Position numbers and translations under genes: made by a program. From Acidobacteriota bacterium (lineage in GTDB: Bacteria > Acidobacteriota > UBA4820 > DSQY01): a stretch of DNA of 51,268 nucleotides. Location of the stretch: NCBI GenBank assembly GCA_040752915.1, contig JBFMHB010000014.1:1-51268 (forward strand), read 5' to 3'. This document shows positions 16,333 through 25,309 of this stretch, piece after piece (the stretch's first letter is position 1; each line of letters starts with the position of its first letter). The notes below the pieces were generated by a model. It searched no databases. It was not told the origin of the DNA and saw nothing but the letters and a program-made list of their open reading frames with translations.

Positions 16333-16716
16333 CTAGGCGACCGCCGCGACGGCCTCGATTTCCACCAGTACGTCCTTGGGCAGCCGCGCCACCTCCACGG
16401 TGGCCCGGGCCGGGGCGCCTTCGGCGAAGAACTCCGCATACATGGCGTTCATGGCGGCGAAGTCCTCCATCCGCTTCAGGTACACCGTGGTCTTCACGAC
16501 TCCGCCCAGGGAGGACCCGCCCGCCTCGAGAACGGCCCGGAGGTTTTCGAGGACCCGACGCGTCTGGGCCGCGACGTCCGCCCCCTCCACCTGTCCCGTG
16601 GCGGGGTTCAGGGCGATCTGTCCCGAGCAGAAGAGAAACCCACCGGCACGGATCGCCTGGGAGTACGGGCCCAGGGCGGCGGGGGCACGGTCCGTGGAGA
16701 CGATTTCCTTCTTCAT
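16333..16716 (-). CDS. ridA: RidA family enamine/imine deaminase
   Basis: 127 residues, the normal RidA length. The ATG at 16716 has AGGGAGA 6 bases upstream; a longer frame adds 16 unconserved residues. The typical features are A-x-G-P-Y-S-Q-A-I near the start, F-C-S-G-Q-I, and the C-terminal A-R-A-T-V-E-V containing the catalytic Arg, followed by [10 protein letters not shown]. It hydrolyses reactive 2-aminoacrylate-type enamines released by PLP enzymes. It follows the secreted-protein gene by 44 bases. Confidence 0.95.
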
Positions 16717-16760
16717 TTCGATTCTCCCTGGCGCGCGGACGGCACGGAACGCCTCCACCG

Positions 16761-17471
16761 TCACGGCACCTCAAACCGGAGGAAGGGGCCCGCGAGCGAG
16801 GGCTTTGCGCCCTTGCCGAAGTCCGTGAGCGTGACCTCCTCCTCCCCGCTCGAGAGGCGGACCAGCCCGAAGGGCGACACCTCGTCCGAGAGCCAGACCT
16901 CCGCGGACCTCCCCTCCTCCGCCACGATGCGCAAACGGCGGCACAGGAGGGTCTTGCGGCCCACCTTCACCTTTTCTTCGGGAAGAGCCTCCAGACGCCC
17001 GAAGGTCGGTCCGATGGCCGCCGCCTCCCGACCGAACCGGTCTCCGCCCTGCTGCCTCAGACGCTCCAGGGCGGCGCGGTCGATTTCAACGGCCGGCCCA
17101 TCTCCGTCCTTCGCGCGCACCGAGACGATGTTGGCGTCCTCCGTCGGATCCCCCTTGAGGAGGTAAGCCGCCACCGAGGGCACTCCGCCGGAGGAGGTCC
17201 GGATCTCCATCCAGAGACCTTCGGGGACTTCCTCGACCACGGCGAAAGTCAGGTCGGCTTCCTCTCCTCGGGCGTCCCTTACGTGGTAGGAGCTCCACGC
17301 CCCCGGCCTGGGCGACCACTGGTGGTAAAACTCCGGAAAGTAGGAAGAGGCCTCCGGGGCCCGTCCAGCGAGCCACAGCGCGGCCGGAAGGAGGAGGACC
17401 GCCGCGGCCCTCAAGGCCCGAAGGGCCGGGGGGCGGGTCGGCCGGGGTATTGCGTCGGGGCGCAGGTTCAT
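16761..17471 (-). CDS. Exported protein of unknown function
   Basis: 236 residues. The ATG at 17471 lies 5 bases after the stop of the PFL gene; a GAGG inside the end of the PFL gene is about 11 bases upstream. A Pro/Arg-rich N-terminus and a hydrophobic stretch (about 20-37) form a signal peptide. The mature part is a mostly beta protein of about 195 residues with charged edges and ends in F-L-R-F-E-V-P. I see no catalytic motif. The pattern of strands resembles LolA/RseB-type or DUF3108-like folds, but that is a loose impression. It is probably co-transcribed with the PFL and ACT genes. Confidence 0.7.
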
Positions 17472-17476
17472 ATGGA

Positions 17477-18838
17477 TCAGTTCCTCAGGGACGTGATGGG
17501 TGCCGGGATCACGCCGCCCCGGCCCACGAATCCGGAGCAGGAGAGCGTTCGGATCTCCTGGATGGGGGCGTCGCCGAGGAGGCCTCCGAAGGAGACCGTC
17601 TCCCCCACCCGCTTCCCGTGGGCGGGAATGACGCGGACGGCCGTCGTCTTGTGGTTGACGATTCCGATGGCGAGTTCGTCGGCGATGAATCCGGCCAGGA
17701 CGTCTTCCTCCACGTCCCCCGGCACGGCCACCATGTCGAGGCCCACGGAGCACACGCTCGTCATGGCCTCGAGCTTCTCCAGGGAGAGGTGCCCCTCGCG
17801 GGCCGCGGAGATCATGGTGGCATCCTCGCTGACGGGGATGAAGGCCCCCGAAAGCCCGCCCACGGCGGATGTGGCCATGGCCCCGCCCTTCTTCACCGCG
17901 TCCGTGAGAAGCGCCAGCGCCGCCGTCGTCCCGCACGCCCCCACGCGCTCCAGGCCCATGGCCTCCAGGACCTCGCCCACCGAGTCGCCGAGTTCGGGCG
18001 TCGGGGCCAGGGAGAGGTCCACGATCCCGAAGGGGACGCCCAGGCGGCCCGCCACCTGGCGGCCGATCAGTTCGCCCACGCGGGTGATCTTGAAGGCCGC
18101 GCGCTTGATGACCTCCTCGAGGGTCCGCAAGTCGCAGGGGCCCGCCCGCTTGATGGCCTCGCACACGACCCCCGGGCCGCTCACGCCCGTGTGGACAACG
18201 ATCTCCGGAAGCCCCACCCCGTGGAAGGCCCCCGCCATGAAGGGGTTGTCCTCCACGGCGTTGGCGAAGACGACGAACTTGGCGCAGCCGATACTCCCCG
18301 ACTCCCTCGTCCGGTAGGCCGTTTCCTTGAGGAGCCGGGCCACGATCCGAACGGCGTCCACGTTGAGCCCCGTCCGGCTGGAACCGGCGTTGACGGAGGA
18401 GCACAGTCGCGAAGTGGAGGAGAGGGCCTCGGGGATCGAGGCCAGGAGGGCCCGGTCGGCGTCCGTGAAACCCGCATGGACGAGAGCCGAGTACCCGCCC
18501 ACGAAGTCGAACCCCATCTCCGAGGCGGCCCGGTCGATGGCCCGGGCGATTTCCAGGTAGGCCGACGGCTCGCACCGGGTGCTGATCAGGGACACGGGCG
18601 AGATGGACAACCGCCGGTTCGCTACCCGGATCCCCAGGTCGTCAGCCGTGGCGTTGACCGCGGCGGGAAGGGGGGAGGCGATCCGCCTCAGCTTTTCGTA
18701 CACCCGCCGGGCGGCCTCGCTCGGATCGGGATGGGCGCAGTCCAGCAGGCTGATTCCAAGCGTAACGGTCCGGACATCGAAGTGCTCCAGCTCGGTCATC
18801 CGGAGAGTCTCGAGGATCTCGCGCTTCGTGTAGGTCAT
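17477..18838 (-). CDS. PFL family protein (UPF0210/DUF711)
   Basis: 453 residues, the usual length for UPF0210. Family features: an N-terminal I-L-E-T-L-R-M-T-E block, S-S-V-N-A-G-S-S-R-T-G-L-N-V-D-A, C-A-K-F-V-V-F-A-N-A-V-E-D-N-P-F-M-A-G-A-F-H-G, and a Gly-rich C-terminal half. The fold is related to glycyl radical enzymes (pyruvate formate-lyase), but the family's reaction is not known to me. It sits directly downstream (28 bases) of an ACT-domain UPF0237 gene, a pairing seen widely in bacteria, so the two likely work together, the ACT protein sensing a ligand (inference). Confidence 0.93.
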   Translation of the reverse strand: MTYTKREILETLRMTELEHFDVRTVTLGISLLDCAHPDPSEAARRVYEKLRRIASPLPAAVNATADDLGIRVANRRLSISPVSLISTRCEPSAYLEIARAIDRAASEMGFDFVGGYSALVHAGFTDADRALLASIPEALSSTSRLCSSVNAGSSRTGLNVDAVRIVARLLKETAYRTRESGSIGCAKFVVFANAVEDNPFMAGAFHGVGLPEIVVHTGVSGPGVVCEAIKRAGPCDLRTLEEVIKRAAFKITRVGELIGRQVAGRLGVPFGIVDLSLAPTPELGDSVGEVLEAMGLERVGACGTTAALALLTDAVKKGGAMATSAVGGLSGAFIPVSEDATMISAAREGHLSLEKLEAMTSVCSVGLDMVAVPGDVEEDVLAGFIADELAIGIVNHKTTAVRVIPAHGKRVGETVSFGGLLGDAPIQEIRTLSCSGFVGRGGVIPAPITSLRN

Positions 18839-18866
18839 CGCAGTCCCTCTCCGTGCCCGGCCCGAT

Positions 18867-19289
18867 TCACACCCGGTTCACGGCGCGCATCATGTCCTCG
18901 TATTGCACGAAGACCAGGACGCCCACCTCTTCCCCTCGCCGCTTCAGGGAGGCCCTCAACTCTTCAAAGGAGACCGAGGCGCCCGAGGGATCCAGGATCA
19001 TCATCATGGCGAAGTTCCCGTGGACCAAGGTCTGGTTGATGTCCACGATGTCCACCGAAAGCTCCGCCAGGACCTCCGAGAACGCGTGGACGATGCCCGT
19101 GCGGTTCCGCCCGAGGGCCGTAAAGACCACGTGGCGGGTGCCCGGACCCTCTCGTTCCTGAAGGGGCTGGGATTCGAGAAGGCGGACCAGGTCCGCGACG
19201 ACCCCTTCCAGGGCTCCCCGGGGTGCTTCCCGGGGGAGGTGCCTGAGGACGATTTCCGATACGGCCACGGCCAGGGCTTCGCGGTCCAT
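18867..19289 (-). CDS. ACT-domain protein (UPF0237) with N-terminal extension
   Basis: 140 residues. ATG at 19289 with GGGAGG about 5 bases upstream. Residues about 50-140 are a textbook UPF0237 ACT domain: G-R-N-R-T-G-I-V, V-D-I-V-D-I-N-Q-T, F-A-M-M-M-I-L-D, and a C-terminal Q-Y-E-D-M-M-R-A-V-N-R. ACT domains bind amino acids or similar ligands. Family members are normally about 90 residues; here 48 extra residues precede it, predicted helical, with no recognised motif. It is first in the ACT-PFL-secreted protein gene set. Confidence 0.9.
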   Translation of the reverse strand: MDREALAVAVSEIVLRHLPREAPRGALEGVVADLVRLLESQPLQEREGPGTRHVVFTALGRNRTGIVHAFSEVLAELSVDIVDINQTLVHGNFAMMMILDPSGASVSFEELRASLKRRGEEVGVLVFVQYEDMMRAVNRV

Positions 19290-19389
19290 TGGACCCTCCC
19301 GCCTGAGAATACCCGAAGGGGCGCTTCGAAAGATAGGCCCCCGTGGCCCCTTGCACCCGACGGGGCCAACGCGTTACGCTTCTCGTGAG

Positions 19390-19788
19390 ATGTTCGAAAA
19401 CAAAATGGTGGTTCGGTTCAAGGACGGCAGCACCCTCTCCGGGTTCGGGGACAATTTCATGCCCGGCGAATCGGAAATTCTGATGCAGGACCTGGAAGAG
19501 AATCTGCACCGGCTCCCGCTTTCGAGCGTGAAAATGGTCTGCTTCGTGAGGACTTTCACTTCGGACTCCGGGGAAACGCACCGACTTCCAGGGAAAGTCC
19601 TCTATCAGCCCGTCCCCGGGTCCCGTGTCCGCATCGCCTTCCGGGACGGGGAGGTGCTGGAGGGCGTCTCGGCCATTCGATCCCGCCCCAGGACCGGCTT
19701 CTTCCTGACCCCCTTGAATCCGAACAGCAACAACCTTCACGTCTATGTGAACATGGACGAGGTCGTCAATTTCCGCTTTCTTGATTGA
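19390..19788 (+). CDS. Small protein with two V-x-F-x-D-G repeats (DUF6982-like)
   Basis: 132 residues. Starting at ATG 19390. Two similar halves each begin with V-R/V-x-F-x-D-G (residues about 7-15 and 80-88) followed by an L-x-G turn, a repeated small beta-barrel-like pattern seen in DUF6982-type proteins of Acidobacteria (family recognition from memory). There is no signal peptide, so it is cytoplasmic. There is no Shine-Dalgarno; a weak TTGCAC-18-TACGCT promoter ends 9 bases before the ATG. A TTG at 19351 would add 13 residues. The last 23 bases overlap the end of the converging chemoreceptor gene. Confidence 0.7.
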
Positions 19789-22700
19789 GCCAGATTCTCT
19801 CCGGCCGGACCATGGGCGGGGTGAGGAACAGCTTCATGCCCATGACGTCCGGCTGATGGGGCACGATGCCCCGCGTGTGGTACAGGAAGATGCAGGGCGC
19901 GTCCTCGATGAGCATGTCCTCCGCCCTCCTGTACAGGTCCACCCGCTCCTCCGGGTTCAATGAGCGTCGGGCCCGGTCCACGACCTCGTCGAACTGAGGG
20001 TTCCGATAGTGGACCTCGAGCACGTCGCCTCCCTTCGAGTGGAAGAGGAAGTGCATGAAGGAATCGGGATCCGGGTAGTCCGCGTACCAACCCGTCGCGT
20101 ACAAGGCGGGCTTTCCGCGGGTCTTCCTCAGGGCCTCGAAGGCCTCGTGGCTCATCGGCTCCGCATCCACCCTCACGTTGACGGCCCTCAGCATCTCGAC
20201 GAGGACGGAGAACTCCTTGGACTGCCTTACGCGGCTCGTGTCCACGGGGACTTTCAGATCCAACCCCGCTCCGAATCCGGCCTTCTGGAGAAGCCATTTG
20301 GCGCGCTCCGGATCGTAGTGGAAGCCCCTCAGGTCCTGGCGGTATCCAAGGATGCCGGGGGGCAGGATCCCGCGGGCCGGCGTCGAGCGGGCGTGAACGT
20401 ACTGGCCCACCAGGGAATCCCGGTCCACCGCGTAGTTCATGGCCTGCCGGACCTCCTTGATATCCAAGGGGGGAAGGTCGTTGCGGATGCTGACGAAGAT
20501 CGTGTTGAGGAGGACCGTGCTCTGGGTGTGGTTCTGCCAGAAGGGATCCTGGAGGAGCTTCTCGACGGCGTCGTTGGAGAAGTTGGAGACGAGGTGGACC
20601 TGCCCCCGTTTGAGCGCCGCCTCCAGGCAGTCCTCGTCGCGGCACGAGAAGTCGAAGACCACCCGGTCCAGGTAGGGAACTCCGCTCTCCCAGTACCCTG
20701 CGAAGCGCTCCATCCTCACCCGGTCCGGTGAAGCCTCGACGATCGAGAAGGGCCCGCATCCCAGGGGTCTGACCAGGCGGAGGGTCTGCTCGTCAAAGGC
20801 CTCCCGGGGCATGATGGAGGCCTCCGGGTACGCCAGGAAGTACAGGAAGAAGGCCAGGGGTTCCTTGAGGCACACCTCCACCGTCCGGTCGTCCGGCGCC
20901 CTCAGGCCCGACACCGTCTTGGCCTTCCCCTCCACGTAGGCCTCGATTCCCTCCACCGGCCCCAGGAAGGACTTTCCCTCGGACAGGAGTTTGGGCGAGG
21001 CCGCCCGGTGCCAGGAGTACAGTACGTCGGCGGAAGTCACGGGGCGCCCGTTGTGGAAGACCACGCCGTGGCGCAGGCGGAAGGTGTAGATCTTTCCGTC
21101 CGTGCTCAGACGCCACGATTCCGCGACGCCCGGGAGGACCTGGGTGCCCTGCCCGAGACGCACGAGGCCCTCGCAGTAGGGGTGGACCACCTCGTGGTCC
21201 CGGATGTTGTTGGCGAAGGCCGGGTCCAGGTGGTATTCGTAGGCCACCCCGCCCAGGCGGAGCTCGCCTCCCCGGCGGGCCTTCGGCAATTGAAAGGCCG
21301 TGAGTTCCTCCACGAGGATGAGGGACTCCTGTTTGAGGGCGGCCGACGTGGCCGACATCTCCCTGGCTCCGTGGAGGTTCTGCTCGGCCGATCCCGAGAT
21401 GGCGTCCATGGCGCCCACGATCTGCTGGCCCGCCTGAGACATGCGGATCAGGGCCTTTTGGATGGCCTCCACGGAACTGCGGACCTGGTCCATGCCCTCG
21501 GCGATGGTGTTGCTCCCGGCGGCTTCCTCCTCCATGGCCCGGTCCACGCTGCGGGTCAGGTCCTTCATGACCTCGGAGCGCTTGCTGATGTGGCGAGAGG
21601 TCTGCGCCTGCTCGCGGGTGGCCGTGGAGATGCGCTCGATGCGCTTGGTCATCTCCTCGATGGCCGCCGTCACCTGCCGGCTGCCCTTGGCCTGCTCCGA
21701 GGCAGCTCGGGCGATGTGGCTGATGCTCGTGCCGGCGCCTTCGATGGCCTTTCCGATCTTCTGCAGGGTGGCCTCGGCGCTCTGTCCCAGCCGGAGCCCC
21801 TCGTCCACCTTGACCATCCCCTCTCGGGCCACCCGGCTGGCCTCCTCCACCTCTCGCTGGATGGTCTGGATGATGGTGGCCACCTCGCCCGTGGAGGCCG
21901 TCGTCCGCTCGCTGAGGTCCCGGATCTCCTCCGCCACCACTCCGAAGGAGCGCCCGTGCTCTCCCGCCTGCGCGGCGATGATGGCGGCGTTGAGGGCAAG
22001 CAGATTCGTCTGGTCGGCGATGTCCCGGATCACCTTCAGGATTTTTCCGATGTCACGGGACCTGTCCACCAGGGAGTTCATGGCCTCCTGGTTCGTGGTC
22101 ATGACGTTGTGGATGGTCGAGAGGGCCACCACCGTGTGCTTGACGGCCTCCTCCCCGGAGCGGGCCGTATCGAGAACCTGCCGGGAAATCCCCTCCGTAT
22201 CCCGGATGTTCTCTTCGATCTGGCTGATGGTGGCGTCCATTTCGACCATGGCCGAGGAGTTCTCGATGGCGAAGGAGGAAAGGCTCTCCCCGTGGCCGGC
22301 CACTTCGTCGATGGAACGGGACATCTCCTCGATGGAGGCGCTGATTTCGTCCACGAGCGACGAGAGGCTGTGGGTGGCCCCGAGGACCTCCTCGATGGAG
22401 GCCCGCATCTCCAAGATCGCGCTGGACGTTTTCTCCGTGAACCCGGAGAGGCTGTCCACGCTCTCCACGACCTTTTCGATCTCCCCTTCGAGGGAGGAGA
22501 GGGAGTGCCGGACGCCGGACACGGATCTCGCCTGGTCCTCCGCTTCCGAGAAGAGCTGCTGGGCCTTCTCCGAGATGCGGCCCGAGGCTTCCGACACCCC
22601 GGCCCCCGTGTCCTGGAGGTGCCCGATGATTCCCTGGAGGGAGGAGAGGACCCGTTTCAGTCCCGGGAACGCCTCCAGGACCCCCCGCGTGGTCGAGTCC

Positions 22701-22948
22701 TGACCGACGTCCAGGCTCCCCGACGCGATCCTTCGGAGGAGGTCGTCCAGGTGCTCCTTGGAGTAGGACTTCTGCTGGAAAAGGAGGACGGCCGTCCCGA
22801 GGGCTCCCATGGCGCCCGAGACGAGGATGAAGGCCCAGAACCGGCCGCCGAAGGTGCCGGCTGGCAGGATGAGGCGGGCCAGAACGGCCAGCAGGGCCGT
22901 GGAGGCCACACCCCCCAGGATCACACTGCTCCAAGCGCGCCTCGCCAC
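19766..22948 (-). CDS. Methyl-accepting chemotaxis protein fused to a family-5 solute-binding protein
   Basis: 1060 residues. GTG start at 22948 with AGGAGG about 6 bases upstream. Two membrane helices (about 7-29 and 35-57) are joined by a very short loop, so there is almost no periplasmic sensor. Residues about 60-545 are a long chemoreceptor helical hairpin whose tip carries the [11 protein letters not shown] motif (about 312-323). Residues about 560-1055 are an entire SBP_bac_5 (oligopeptide/nickel binding) domain, with [20 protein letters not shown] and the C-terminal Y-A-D-Y-P-D-P-D pattern. No membrane segment or signal lies between them, so both parts should be cytoplasmic by the positive-inside rule. 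The protein presumably relays a ligand signal to CheA (inference). No che genes are nearby. Confidence 0.92.
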
Positions 22949-22974
22949 GAGCCCCTCCTACGACATCCTTCCCC

Positions 22975-23003
22975 ATCCTAGGCAAGAGCCCCGGGGGTGT
23001 CAA
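22975..23003 (-). promoter_or_regulatory. Promoter of the chemoreceptor-SBP fusion gene
   Basis: On the minus strand, a perfect -35 TTGACA (22998-23003), a 17-base spacer and -10 TAGGAT (22975-22980). The leader is about 20 bases and includes the AGGAGG site. Confidence 0.7.
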
Positions 23004-23141
23004 ATGAGCAGGGGCGTCTCCAACCCGGGTGGGACCGCGGGCCGGCCCACGGAATCCTAGCGGGCAATCGTCGGGAACTGACCCGGCGCTCGTCCCATGG
23101 GGGACGGGCGACCGCCGATCCGGGGGCGGGAGCGCGGTTTT

Positions 23142-23150
23142 TGCTACAAT
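23142..23150 (+). promoter_or_regulatory. Extended -10 promoter of rel, leaderless spacing
   Basis: TGCTACAAT: a TG dinucleotide one base before the strong hexamer TACAAT (23145-23150). Eight bases separate it from the ATG at 23159, so transcription should start within a base or two of the start codon. There is no -35 match. Confidence 0.55.
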
Positions 23151-23158
23151 GGTCTGCC

Positions 23159-25309
23159 ATGTTGCCGCGAATAGACCGCGTCCTCGAGAAGGTGAAGACT
23201 TACAACCCCTCGTCGGACGAACGCCTGCTCCAGAAAGCCTACCTCTTCTCGGCCCTGGCCCACGAGGGCCAGTTGCGATACACGGGGGAGCCTTACCTCG
23301 TCCATCCGGTGGCCGTCACCGACATCCTGGCGGACTTGAAAGCCGACGACACGGCCCTCGTGGCGGGGCTCCTGCACGACGTGGTGGAGGACAACCACTC
23401 GGTCAGCCTGGAGGACATCCAGAAGCGCTTCGGGCGCGACGTGGCCCACATCGTGGACGGGGTGACGAAAATCGAGGACCAGGTCCCCCTCGCAAGCCGC
23501 CAGGAAAGGGAGTGGGCCTCCCTCCGCAAGGTCATCCTCGCCATGGTGGACGACATCCGCGTGATCCTCGTGAAGCTCGCGGACCGCCTCCACAATTTGA
23601 GGACCCTCGACGGCCTTCCGCCCGACCGGCGACCGGTCAAGGCCCTGGAGACTTTGCAGATCTACGCGCCCATCGCCTATCGCCTGGGCCTCGGGCGGAT
23701 GAAGACCGAACTGGAGGACCTCTCCTTCCGGCACGCCTACCCCGAGGAGTACGCTGCCCTCTCGGAGGCCCTCCAGAACCGGCGGTCCTACAGCCAGGAC
23801 TTCATTCAGGAGACCTCCGCCGAGATCCAGGCCATCCTGGACGCGAACAAGGTTCGCGGCGAGGTCTTCGGCCGGGTCAAGCACCTCTACAGCATCTTCC
23901 TCAAGCTGAGGCGGCAGGAGATCTCCCTGGAGCAGGTTTACGACTACATGGCCTTCCGGGTCCTCGTCCCGTCGGTGAAGGACTGCTACGCGGTTCTTGG
24001 AGGCATCCACGGCAAGTGGATCCCGGTGCCGGGTCGGTTCAAGGACTTCGTGGCCCTGCCGAAGGAGAACCACTACAGGTCTCTCCACACGTCCGTCGTG
24101 GGACCCCACGGCCAGCCGTTCGAGATTCAGATCCGGACCTTCCAGATGCACGAGGAGGCCGAGAACGGCATCGCCGCGCACTGGCAGTACAAGGAGGGAA
24201 AGCTTTCCCAGGAGGACGAGGCCGCCACGACCCACTGGCTGAGGCAGCTCCTCGAATGGCGACAGGACGGCGGCACCGACAAGGACTTCCTCCAGGATCT
24301 GAGGGTGGACCTCTTCCCCAAGGAAGTGTACGTGTTCACCCCCCGCGGGGAGGTGCTGTCCTTCCCGAGGGGAGCGACGCCCATCGACTTCGCCTTCGCC
24401 ATCCATTCGGAGGTGGGACACCGGTGCGTGGGGGCCAAGATCAACGGAAAGCTCGTTCCCCTCAAGACCCCCATGAAGAGCGGCGACCGCGTGGAAATCG
24501 TGACGAGCCCTCAGGGAAGACCCTCTCGTGACTGGCTCAAGGCGGCCGTCACCGGCCGCGCCCTCTCCAAGATCAAGGCCTGGCTCAACGCCCAGGAAAA
24601 GGCCCGCGCCCTCGAAATCGGAAAGGCCGCCCTGGACCGGGAGCTGAAGCGGCTGAAGGTGGGAATCAAGGAGTCCCAGGAGTCGGGGCTCCTCCAGGAG
24701 GCCCTGAAGAAGGTCTCCGTATCGGACCTGGACGCCCTGTACGCGGAGATCGGCTACGGGAAGATCTCCGCCCGGGTGTTCGCCCGCCGCCTGGTTCCCC
24801 CCTCTCCGGAGCCGGCGGCTCCATCGGCCCCGGCCGCACAGCCCGAGACCCCGCGAGAGCCCACCCTGATGGTCCGCGGCGCCGCGGACCTCCTCACGAC
24901 CCTGGCCCGGTGCTGCAAGCCCATCCGCGGGGACGACGTGGTCGGCTTCATCTCGCGGGGCCGCGGACTCGTCATCCACCGGGCGGATTGCCCGAACGTC
25001 TCGCGGCTCAAGTACAATCCCGACCGCTTCATGGAAGTCCGTTGGAGCGAGAAGGAGACCGGGGCCGCGGGCCACGAGGTCCACCTGGCCATCCAGACCG
25101 AGGACAAGACCGGCATGGTGGCCGCCATCACCCAGATCGTGGCCGACGCGAAGGCGCCCCTGAGGCACCTCGAGGCTTCGGTCAATGACAAGGGGGAGGG
25201 CGTGATCCGCCTCGCCGTCCTCATCCGTGACAAGTCGCACCTGTCGGCCATCCAGACGCGAATCGCCCGCATCCCCGGCGTTCTCGGGCTCCGCCGGGTC
25301 AATCGGTAG
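23159..25309 (+). CDS. rel: Bifunctional (p)ppGpp synthetase/hydrolase (Rel/SpoT type)
   Basis: 716 residues, normal Rel length. Domains: HD hydrolase (about 25-180) with intact H-D (73-74) and E-D (77-78); synthetase (about 200-330) with G-R-F-K-D, the RxKD loop typical of bifunctional enzymes, Y-R-S-L-H-T and E-I-Q-I-R-T; TGS (about 390-450) starting V-Y-V-F-T-P; a zinc-finger/conserved-Cys region (about 575-620) with R-C-C-K-P and H-R-A-D-C-P; ACT (about 640-716). It makes and degrades the alarmone ppGpp in response to starvation on the ribosome. The ATG has no Shine-Dalgarno. An upstream in-frame extension is rejected because the promoter lies just before this ATG. The lipid kinase gene follows after 6 bases. 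Confidence 0.97.
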   Translation: MLPRIDRVLEKVKTYNPSSDERLLQKAYLFSALAHEGQLRYTGEPYLVHPVAVTDILADLKADDTALVAGLLHDVVEDNHSVSLEDIQKRFGRDVAHIVDGVTKIEDQVPLASRQEREWASLRKVILAMVDDIRVILVKLADRLHNLRTLDGLPPDRRPVKALETLQIYAPIAYRLGLGRMKTELEDLSFRHAYPEEYAALSEALQNRRSYSQDFIQETSAEIQAILDANKVRGEVFGRVKHLYSIFLKLRRQEISLEQVYDYMAFRVLVPSVKDCYAVLGGIHGKWIPVPGRFKDFVALPKENHYRSLHTSVVGPHGQPFEIQIRTFQMHEEAENGIAAHWQYKEGKLSQEDEAATTHWLRQLLEWRQDGGTDKDFLQDLRVDLFPKEVYVFTPRGEVLSFPRGATPIDFAFAIHSEVGHRCVGAKINGKLVPLKTPMKSGDRVEIVTSPQGRPSRDWLKAAVTGRALSKIKAWLNAQEKARALEIGKAALDRELKRLKVGIKESQESGLLQEALKKVSVSDLDALYAEIGYGKISARVFARRLVPPSPEPAAPSAPAAQPETPREPTLMVRGAADLLTTLARCCKPIRGDDVVGFISRGRGLVIHRADCPNVSRLKYNPDRFMEVRWSEKETGAAGHEVHLAIQTEDKTGMVAAITQIVADAKAPLRHLEASVNDKGEGVIRLAVLIRDKSHLSAIQTRIARIPGVLGLRRVNR

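Follow-up and report, generated by a model that had tools for sequence, protein, structure and literature searches.

Classical peptide chemotaxis, reportedly described by Manson in 1986 (a study cited in PMC9602780), is carried out by Tap together with periplasmic DppA. As would be the case for the chemoreceptor (MCP) described here, a family-5 solute-binding protein (SBP) passes peptide signals to an MCP; however, Tap and DppA are two polypeptides brought together in the periplasm, whereas the present receptor and its SBP are fused in one chain, with a contact that would be cytoplasmic. Chemoreceptors with a ligand domain after the signalling hairpin form a recognised but poorly studied group, with at least 17 types of C-terminal domain counted in Pfam (PMC7390727). 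By this count there are precedents for such a placement, which the preliminary description of the locus called unusual for methylation and array packing. The fusion belongs with these receptors, of which the CZB receptors are an example, because its SBP follows the MCPsignal domain with no transmembrane (TM) helix between them and its sensor lies beyond the MCP hairpin, in the cytoplasm; it appears to differ from them in that the sensor is a complete, two-lobed SBP of 500 residues. SBP_bac_5 is also found as a C-terminal intracellular sensor in SgrR and DsvR, where it is joined to an HTH domain (PMC13060122), and SBP profiles match the sensor domains of cytosolic receptors as well (PMC9602780). 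SgrR and DsvR have a transcriptional output and no MCP hairpin, whereas the fusion would signal to CheA; according to Pfam, the HTH domain of SgrR-type regulators is absent from the fusion, with the TM and MCP regions in its place. PilJ of the Pil-Chp system of Pseudomonas aeruginosa (PMC10896506) offers a parallel in its non-flagellar, pilus-steering pathway and reported peptide response, but has periplasmic sensing domains and no SBP fusion. There are thus precedents both for chemoreceptors that end in a ligand domain and for SBP_bac_5 in the role of a cytoplasmic sensor (SgrR, DsvR); the open-access literature yielded no paper on an MCP joined at its C-terminus to SBP_bac_5, or on the kinase-SBP version discussed below.

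The window examined is a stretch of 51,268 nucleotides from an Acidobacteriota genome (GCA_040752915.1), within which the fusion is a single open frame of 1060 codons with a GTG start and no interruption (Table 1). By hydropathy it has two TM helices only, separated by a loop of about 10 residues, and a hydropathy scan of residues 58-1060 revealed no membrane segment or signal peptide. The MCPsignal match (147.9 bits; threshold 34.6) and the match to the SBP_bac_5 (PF00496) core at residues 604-973 (E 1.6e-78) both lie far above the Pfam thresholds. The region between the second TM helix and the hairpin appeared HAMP-like by eye, but no Pfam HAMP match at E<=1 was present among the families listed. 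At the junction of the two halves F552, G560 and G561 are invariant in 29 of 29 aligned fusions, and P555 is kept in 28. The first residues of the SBP half, from 560 onward, form the GGxL motif with which mature family-5 binding proteins usually begin and which also stands at the start of the alignment with 8upi; the fusion looks like a binding protein that has lost its signal peptide and become attached to the end of a receptor hairpin. GC3 (0.86-0.93) is steady through the MCP/SBP junction and codon composition is unchanged there. The preliminary description had proposed a receptor with just two helices and a tiny loop, carrying in the same chain an entire peptide-type SBP of about 500 residues, with neither a signal nor a membrane segment between the two; the open frame, both Pfam domains, the hydropathy profile and the homologues bear this out.

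Table 1. Positions in the window of the fusion gene, its parts and its conserved neighbours
Feature	Residues	Position	Strand	Basis or remark
Whole fusion gene, 1060 aa		19766..22948	(-)	Open frame; fusions of equal length in relatives
Shine-Dalgarno AGGAGG, 5 nt before GTG		22954..22959	(-)	Read in sequence
TM helix 1	9-27	22868..22924	(-)	Hydropathy 2.16
TM helix 2	39-57	22778..22834	(-)	Hydropathy 2.11
Short linker with invariant GxL (G77)	58-100	22649..22777	(-)	Alignment
Signalling hairpin	100-552	21293..22651	(-)	Indel-free in 29 homologues; arms of ~222 residues per side of tip
MCPsignal (PF00015)	282-435	21644..22105	(-)	Pfam, E 3e-43
Hairpin tip	313-334	21947..22012	(-)	I and Q replace E and R/K of most receptors in flagellated relatives
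Junction FxxP....GG	552-561	21266..21295	(-)	Alignment of 29 fusions
Complete SBP_bac_5 domain	560-1056	19781..21271	(-)	Pfam core 604-973, AlphaFold model, Foldseek
Conserved motif WxADYPDPDxF	953-964	20057..20092	(-)	Alignment of 29 fusions
RelA/SpoT homologue, divergent conserved neighbour		22997..25309	(+)	True start probably downstream of 22997
ACT-domain protein, downstream conserved neighbour		18867..19289	(-)	Pfam ACT_6; synteny in most family and order mates
DUF711 protein, conserved neighbour		17477..18838	(-)	Pfam and synteny

Homologues were searched for in 60 relatives first and then in 396 genomes of Acidobacteriota, and strong matches were found in 30 other genomes of the 396; those in G005 and G229 are only partial or truncated, and G218 has two copies. 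The alignment comprises 29 full-length fusions from about ten family codes of this one phylum, and the named records among the relatives are Acidobacteriota MAGs. Identity to the fusion is 50-60% in members of the same family and order and drops to 26-38% in the phylum's other families. An alignment-based scan of named genomes recovered 11 close members, of which one is cut off by the end of its contig, the other matches being SBPs without an MCP; a single-protein scan of the named genomes gave no fusion match. Residues 100-560 contain no indels across the 29 fusions, and the SBP half contains several. Packing in the array requires a coiled-coil hairpin of constant length, and this fixed length is as expected of a working receptor. 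Counted from the tip glycines (329-332), each arm is about 222 residues long, close to 32 heptads, which suggests membership of the long 64H receptor class. In one close pair of fusions dN/dS is 0.15 for the MCP hairpin and 0.10 for the SBP, indicating that both halves are under purifying selection and in use.

In the tree of SBP domains, those fused to MCPs and those of Ser/Thr kinase-AAA_16-SBP-SBP proteins form one clade (support 98/99) apart from transport-type SBPs, and this split was recovered (99/97) after the addition of 20 SBP loci drawn from the next-best matches in relatives. Most free SBPs outside the clade have a signal peptide or lipobox. Three of the added loci fell within the clade; the long open frames concerned (L170, L171 and L186) resembled free SBPs but lack a signal peptide and were rejected as such, since by eye they appear to be fragments of the kinase/AAA-SBP type. 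The tree of the MCP half allows a single origin of the fusion (90/76). The kinase proteins combine a Ser/Thr kinase, an AAA_16 ATPase and two tandem SBP_bac_5 domains in one chain of about 1,900-2,000 aa (L080:170-5806 and L094:2944-8940, and also L027, L091, L096 and contigs of G036, a genome that seemingly has several such genes). Like the fusion they place members of this SBP clade in one protein with a signalling module, and they are without a convincing TM helix, weak hydrophobic stretches being present in L080 and the truncated L096; unlike the fusion, they have a kinase and ATPase output and SBPs in a tandem pair. As judged from sequence, the Acidobacteriota have a cytoplasmic lineage of SBPs that serves in signalling and has become linked to no fewer than two outputs.

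The window is a contig of a draft genome in 153 contigs, and an assembly error or frameshift might have fused two genes, a doubt that the preliminary description had itself located near 21265. The relatives rule this out, since 29 loci from separate assemblies, which include the single-contig genome G021, exhibit the same architecture with fixed spacing, and do so at both of the identity levels given above; the probability of such an artefact is vanishingly small. The side of the membrane on which the SBP resides also had to be considered, as SBP_bac_5 proteins are normally periplasmic or lipoproteins, like most of the free ones sampled, and an inverted or exported protein might display an otherwise ordinary binding protein on a tether in the periplasm. 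However, the MCP hairpin has to be cytoplasmic to meet CheA, and no export signal follows residue 57. None of the 29 fusions has an export signal or later TM helix beyond the N-terminal helices, and the signal peptide or lipobox that precedes the SBP in most free SBPs sampled is absent from all 29. Moreover, five fusions (L022, L126, L128, L130 and L131, the start of L128 being uncertain) have no TM helix whatever, so that their binding domain and receptor must be soluble and cytoplasmic. A periplasmic SBP was rejected because of these members, and we regard it as highly improbable. The best reading is instead a chemoreceptor that bears a peptide-type SBP in the cytoplasm, supported by the lack of an export signal, the five TM-less homologues, the ancestry shared with TM-less kinase-SBP proteins and the positive-inside rule; the earlier placement of both hairpin and SBP inside the cell is thereby supported.

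The chemosensory pathway was surveyed in 60 genomes, which are related and not independent, and of which 18 possess the fusion. Among these 18, CheA is found in 17 (the exception is 67% complete), CheR and PilT in all, and FliG, counting strong matches, in none; in reciprocal fashion, the fusion is found in 0 of 13 flagellated genomes. For the fusion versus FliG among CheA-bearing genomes, Fisher's test gives p 0.0002, uncorrected for kinship. The host genome encodes CheA, CheW and CheR, with CheA adjoining a CheY-like gene and an ATPase on contig C51 and CheW adjoining an MCP on C27; no pil genes were recognised beside the fusion receptor or the CheA/CheW loci. The tip of the fusion hairpin reads IIAAQ, with I and Q at the positions usually occupied by E and R; of the host's four other receptors, three likewise have I and Q or G there. 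In the flagellated relatives, the readable tips have E at the first position and then usually R/K (EAAR/EAAK). The replacement of EAAR by IIAAQ or IIAAG at this tip (21947-22012 in the window) was seen in receptors of non-flagellar Acidobacteriota (L002, L003, L004, L026 and L030), and an Ile plus Gln/Gly tip is a possible sequence mark of a non-flagellar Che system. The receptor on C20 (L007) is the sole host receptor with the usual EAARAGE tip and has a CheR-domain match within 1 kb, perhaps constituting a second small Che system. On C27 of the host genome G000 (L051:6461-10110), a second MCP has CheW and a free-standing ABC_sub_bind-like (PF04392) protein as neighbours, a set that may be an ordinary two-protein binding-protein/receptor pair. 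Since flagella are absent from the organism, pili rather than swimming are the probable output; on the simplest reading, reached by elimination and co-occurrence, the fusion probably feeds a type IV pilus-type chemosensory system.

The AlphaFold model of the SBP domain has a mean pLDDT of 90.9, and its nearest Foldseek matches are the peptide binders 8upi, B. anthracis 5u4o, OppA, MppA and DppA (E down to 2e-47), with TM-scores of about 0.71-0.84 against the best 50 solved family members. By phmmer, 8upi and DppA rank at the top for this domain. Within the WxADYPDPDxF motif, all 29 fusions share W954, A956, D957, D960, D962 and F964 without exception. D957 aligns with DppA D436, which we take to be the contact for the peptide amino group, and T904 aligns with DppA R383, presumably the carboxylate contact; both DppA residues are the ones altered in the mutant structure 8z1z. 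An arginine near the latter position, R906, is kept in 11 of 29 fusions. The retention of D957 makes a free amino group on the ligand likely, whereas the loss of conservation at the R383 position means that the ligand may not be a dipeptide. A di- or oligopeptide is nevertheless the most likely ligand, and the SBP_bac_5 proteins have been assigned mostly to di-, tri- and oligopeptides (PMC9602780).

The same cytoplasmic sensor could serve a non-peptide ligand, whether a murein fragment, an opine, an amino acid, a sugar-like molecule or some other amine or peptide-like compound, or could be a docking site for a cytoplasmic protein. The Foldseek list includes SBP_bac_5 proteins that bind glutathione, nickel complexes, agropinic acid and murein tripeptide. 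For SgrR, binding of glutamate is reported, and for its homologue DsvR an inducer resembling a sugar has been guessed (PMC13060122); the lost R383 position points the same way. The constancy of the amine-binding Asp and of its motif in all 29 fusions, and the predominance of peptide binders among the closest solved structures, argue for a peptide, and a non-peptide role is rather unlikely. The output can be questioned in a similar manner, since the Che pathway might control a non-pilus function such as development, a second messenger or the envelope. PilT is near-universal in the phylum and its presence is therefore weak evidence for pili as the target, and the lack of recognisable pil genes near CheA or the receptor is also compatible with another function. 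Yet the flagellum is absent while pili and Che proteins are present, and the fusion shares its tip type with the CheW-linked MCP on C27; control of a non-pilus function thus appears unlikely.

In most family and order mates the fusion gene has the same neighbours, with RelA/SpoT divergent (22997-25309, (+) in the window) and the ACT-domain, DUF711 and RidA-like genes, the last recognised by eye, downstream (16333-19289, (-)). These neighbours are suggestive of a nutrient theme. The arrangement is lost in distant families, and is thus not evidence of function by itself. A DUF6982 gene (19351-19788, (+)) overlaps the 3' end of the fusion tail-to-tail by 23 bases, and is kept in several relatives.

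Returning to the reading of the fusion as a peptide sensor, we consider it rather probable that this is a chemoreceptor, carried by some soil and sediment Acidobacteriota, with a cytoplasmic peptide-type sensor domain, whose closure on a peptide would be relayed by CheA to a non-flagellar output, be it type IV pili or some other. The two SBP lobes would close on a ligand from inside the cell that bears a free amino group, a di- or oligopeptide being the likeliest, and this closure would alter the packing of the hairpin base and thereby the activity of CheA, which CheW keeps at the far tip. A phosphorylated CheY-like partner would then act on the pili, or on whichever other non-flagellar machinery is the target, so that the pathway would match surface movement or attachment to the state of peptides or nutrients within the cell. 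The two TM helices, which some relatives lack, would be an anchor and not a sensor. The preliminary description had also proposed that an intracellular ligand is sensed; the cytoplasmic peptide-type SBP, as the best reading, agrees with this, and ligand sensing itself we infer. Because the hairpin folds back, as it does in every MCP, the SBP would be positioned at the membrane-proximal base, beside the linker that follows the second TM helix and far from the CheA/CheW layer. The earlier concern that a C-terminal placement is unusual for array packing holds only in part, since six domains of about 55 kDa per trimer of dimers would crowd the base layer but would not lie among the CheA/CheW tips. 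This crowding may be diluted by the other receptors, the fusion being one of five in the host genome. The AlphaFold model of the full-length protein is poor (pLDDT 50.5) and has a shallow alignment.

A broader proposal, which may as easily hold as fail, is that the Acidobacteriota have a dedicated branch of SBP_bac_5 that moved out of the periplasm to serve as an all-purpose sensor of peptides inside the cell, with at least two unrelated outputs, a chemoreceptor acting on CheA and a Ser/Thr kinase-AAA ATPase, through which internal peptide status would steer pilus behaviour and kinase signalling. The fusion offers a clean test case for the control of a coiled-coil receptor from its base by a large clamshell domain, and the natural TM-less variants should be easier to purify. 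Peptide-binding proteins have usually been studied as parts of transport systems that report on peptides outside the cell. If the members of this lineage are cytoplasmic sensor modules, these bacteria would keep track of peptides that have been taken up or released by protein turnover, and would tie this information to surface behaviour.
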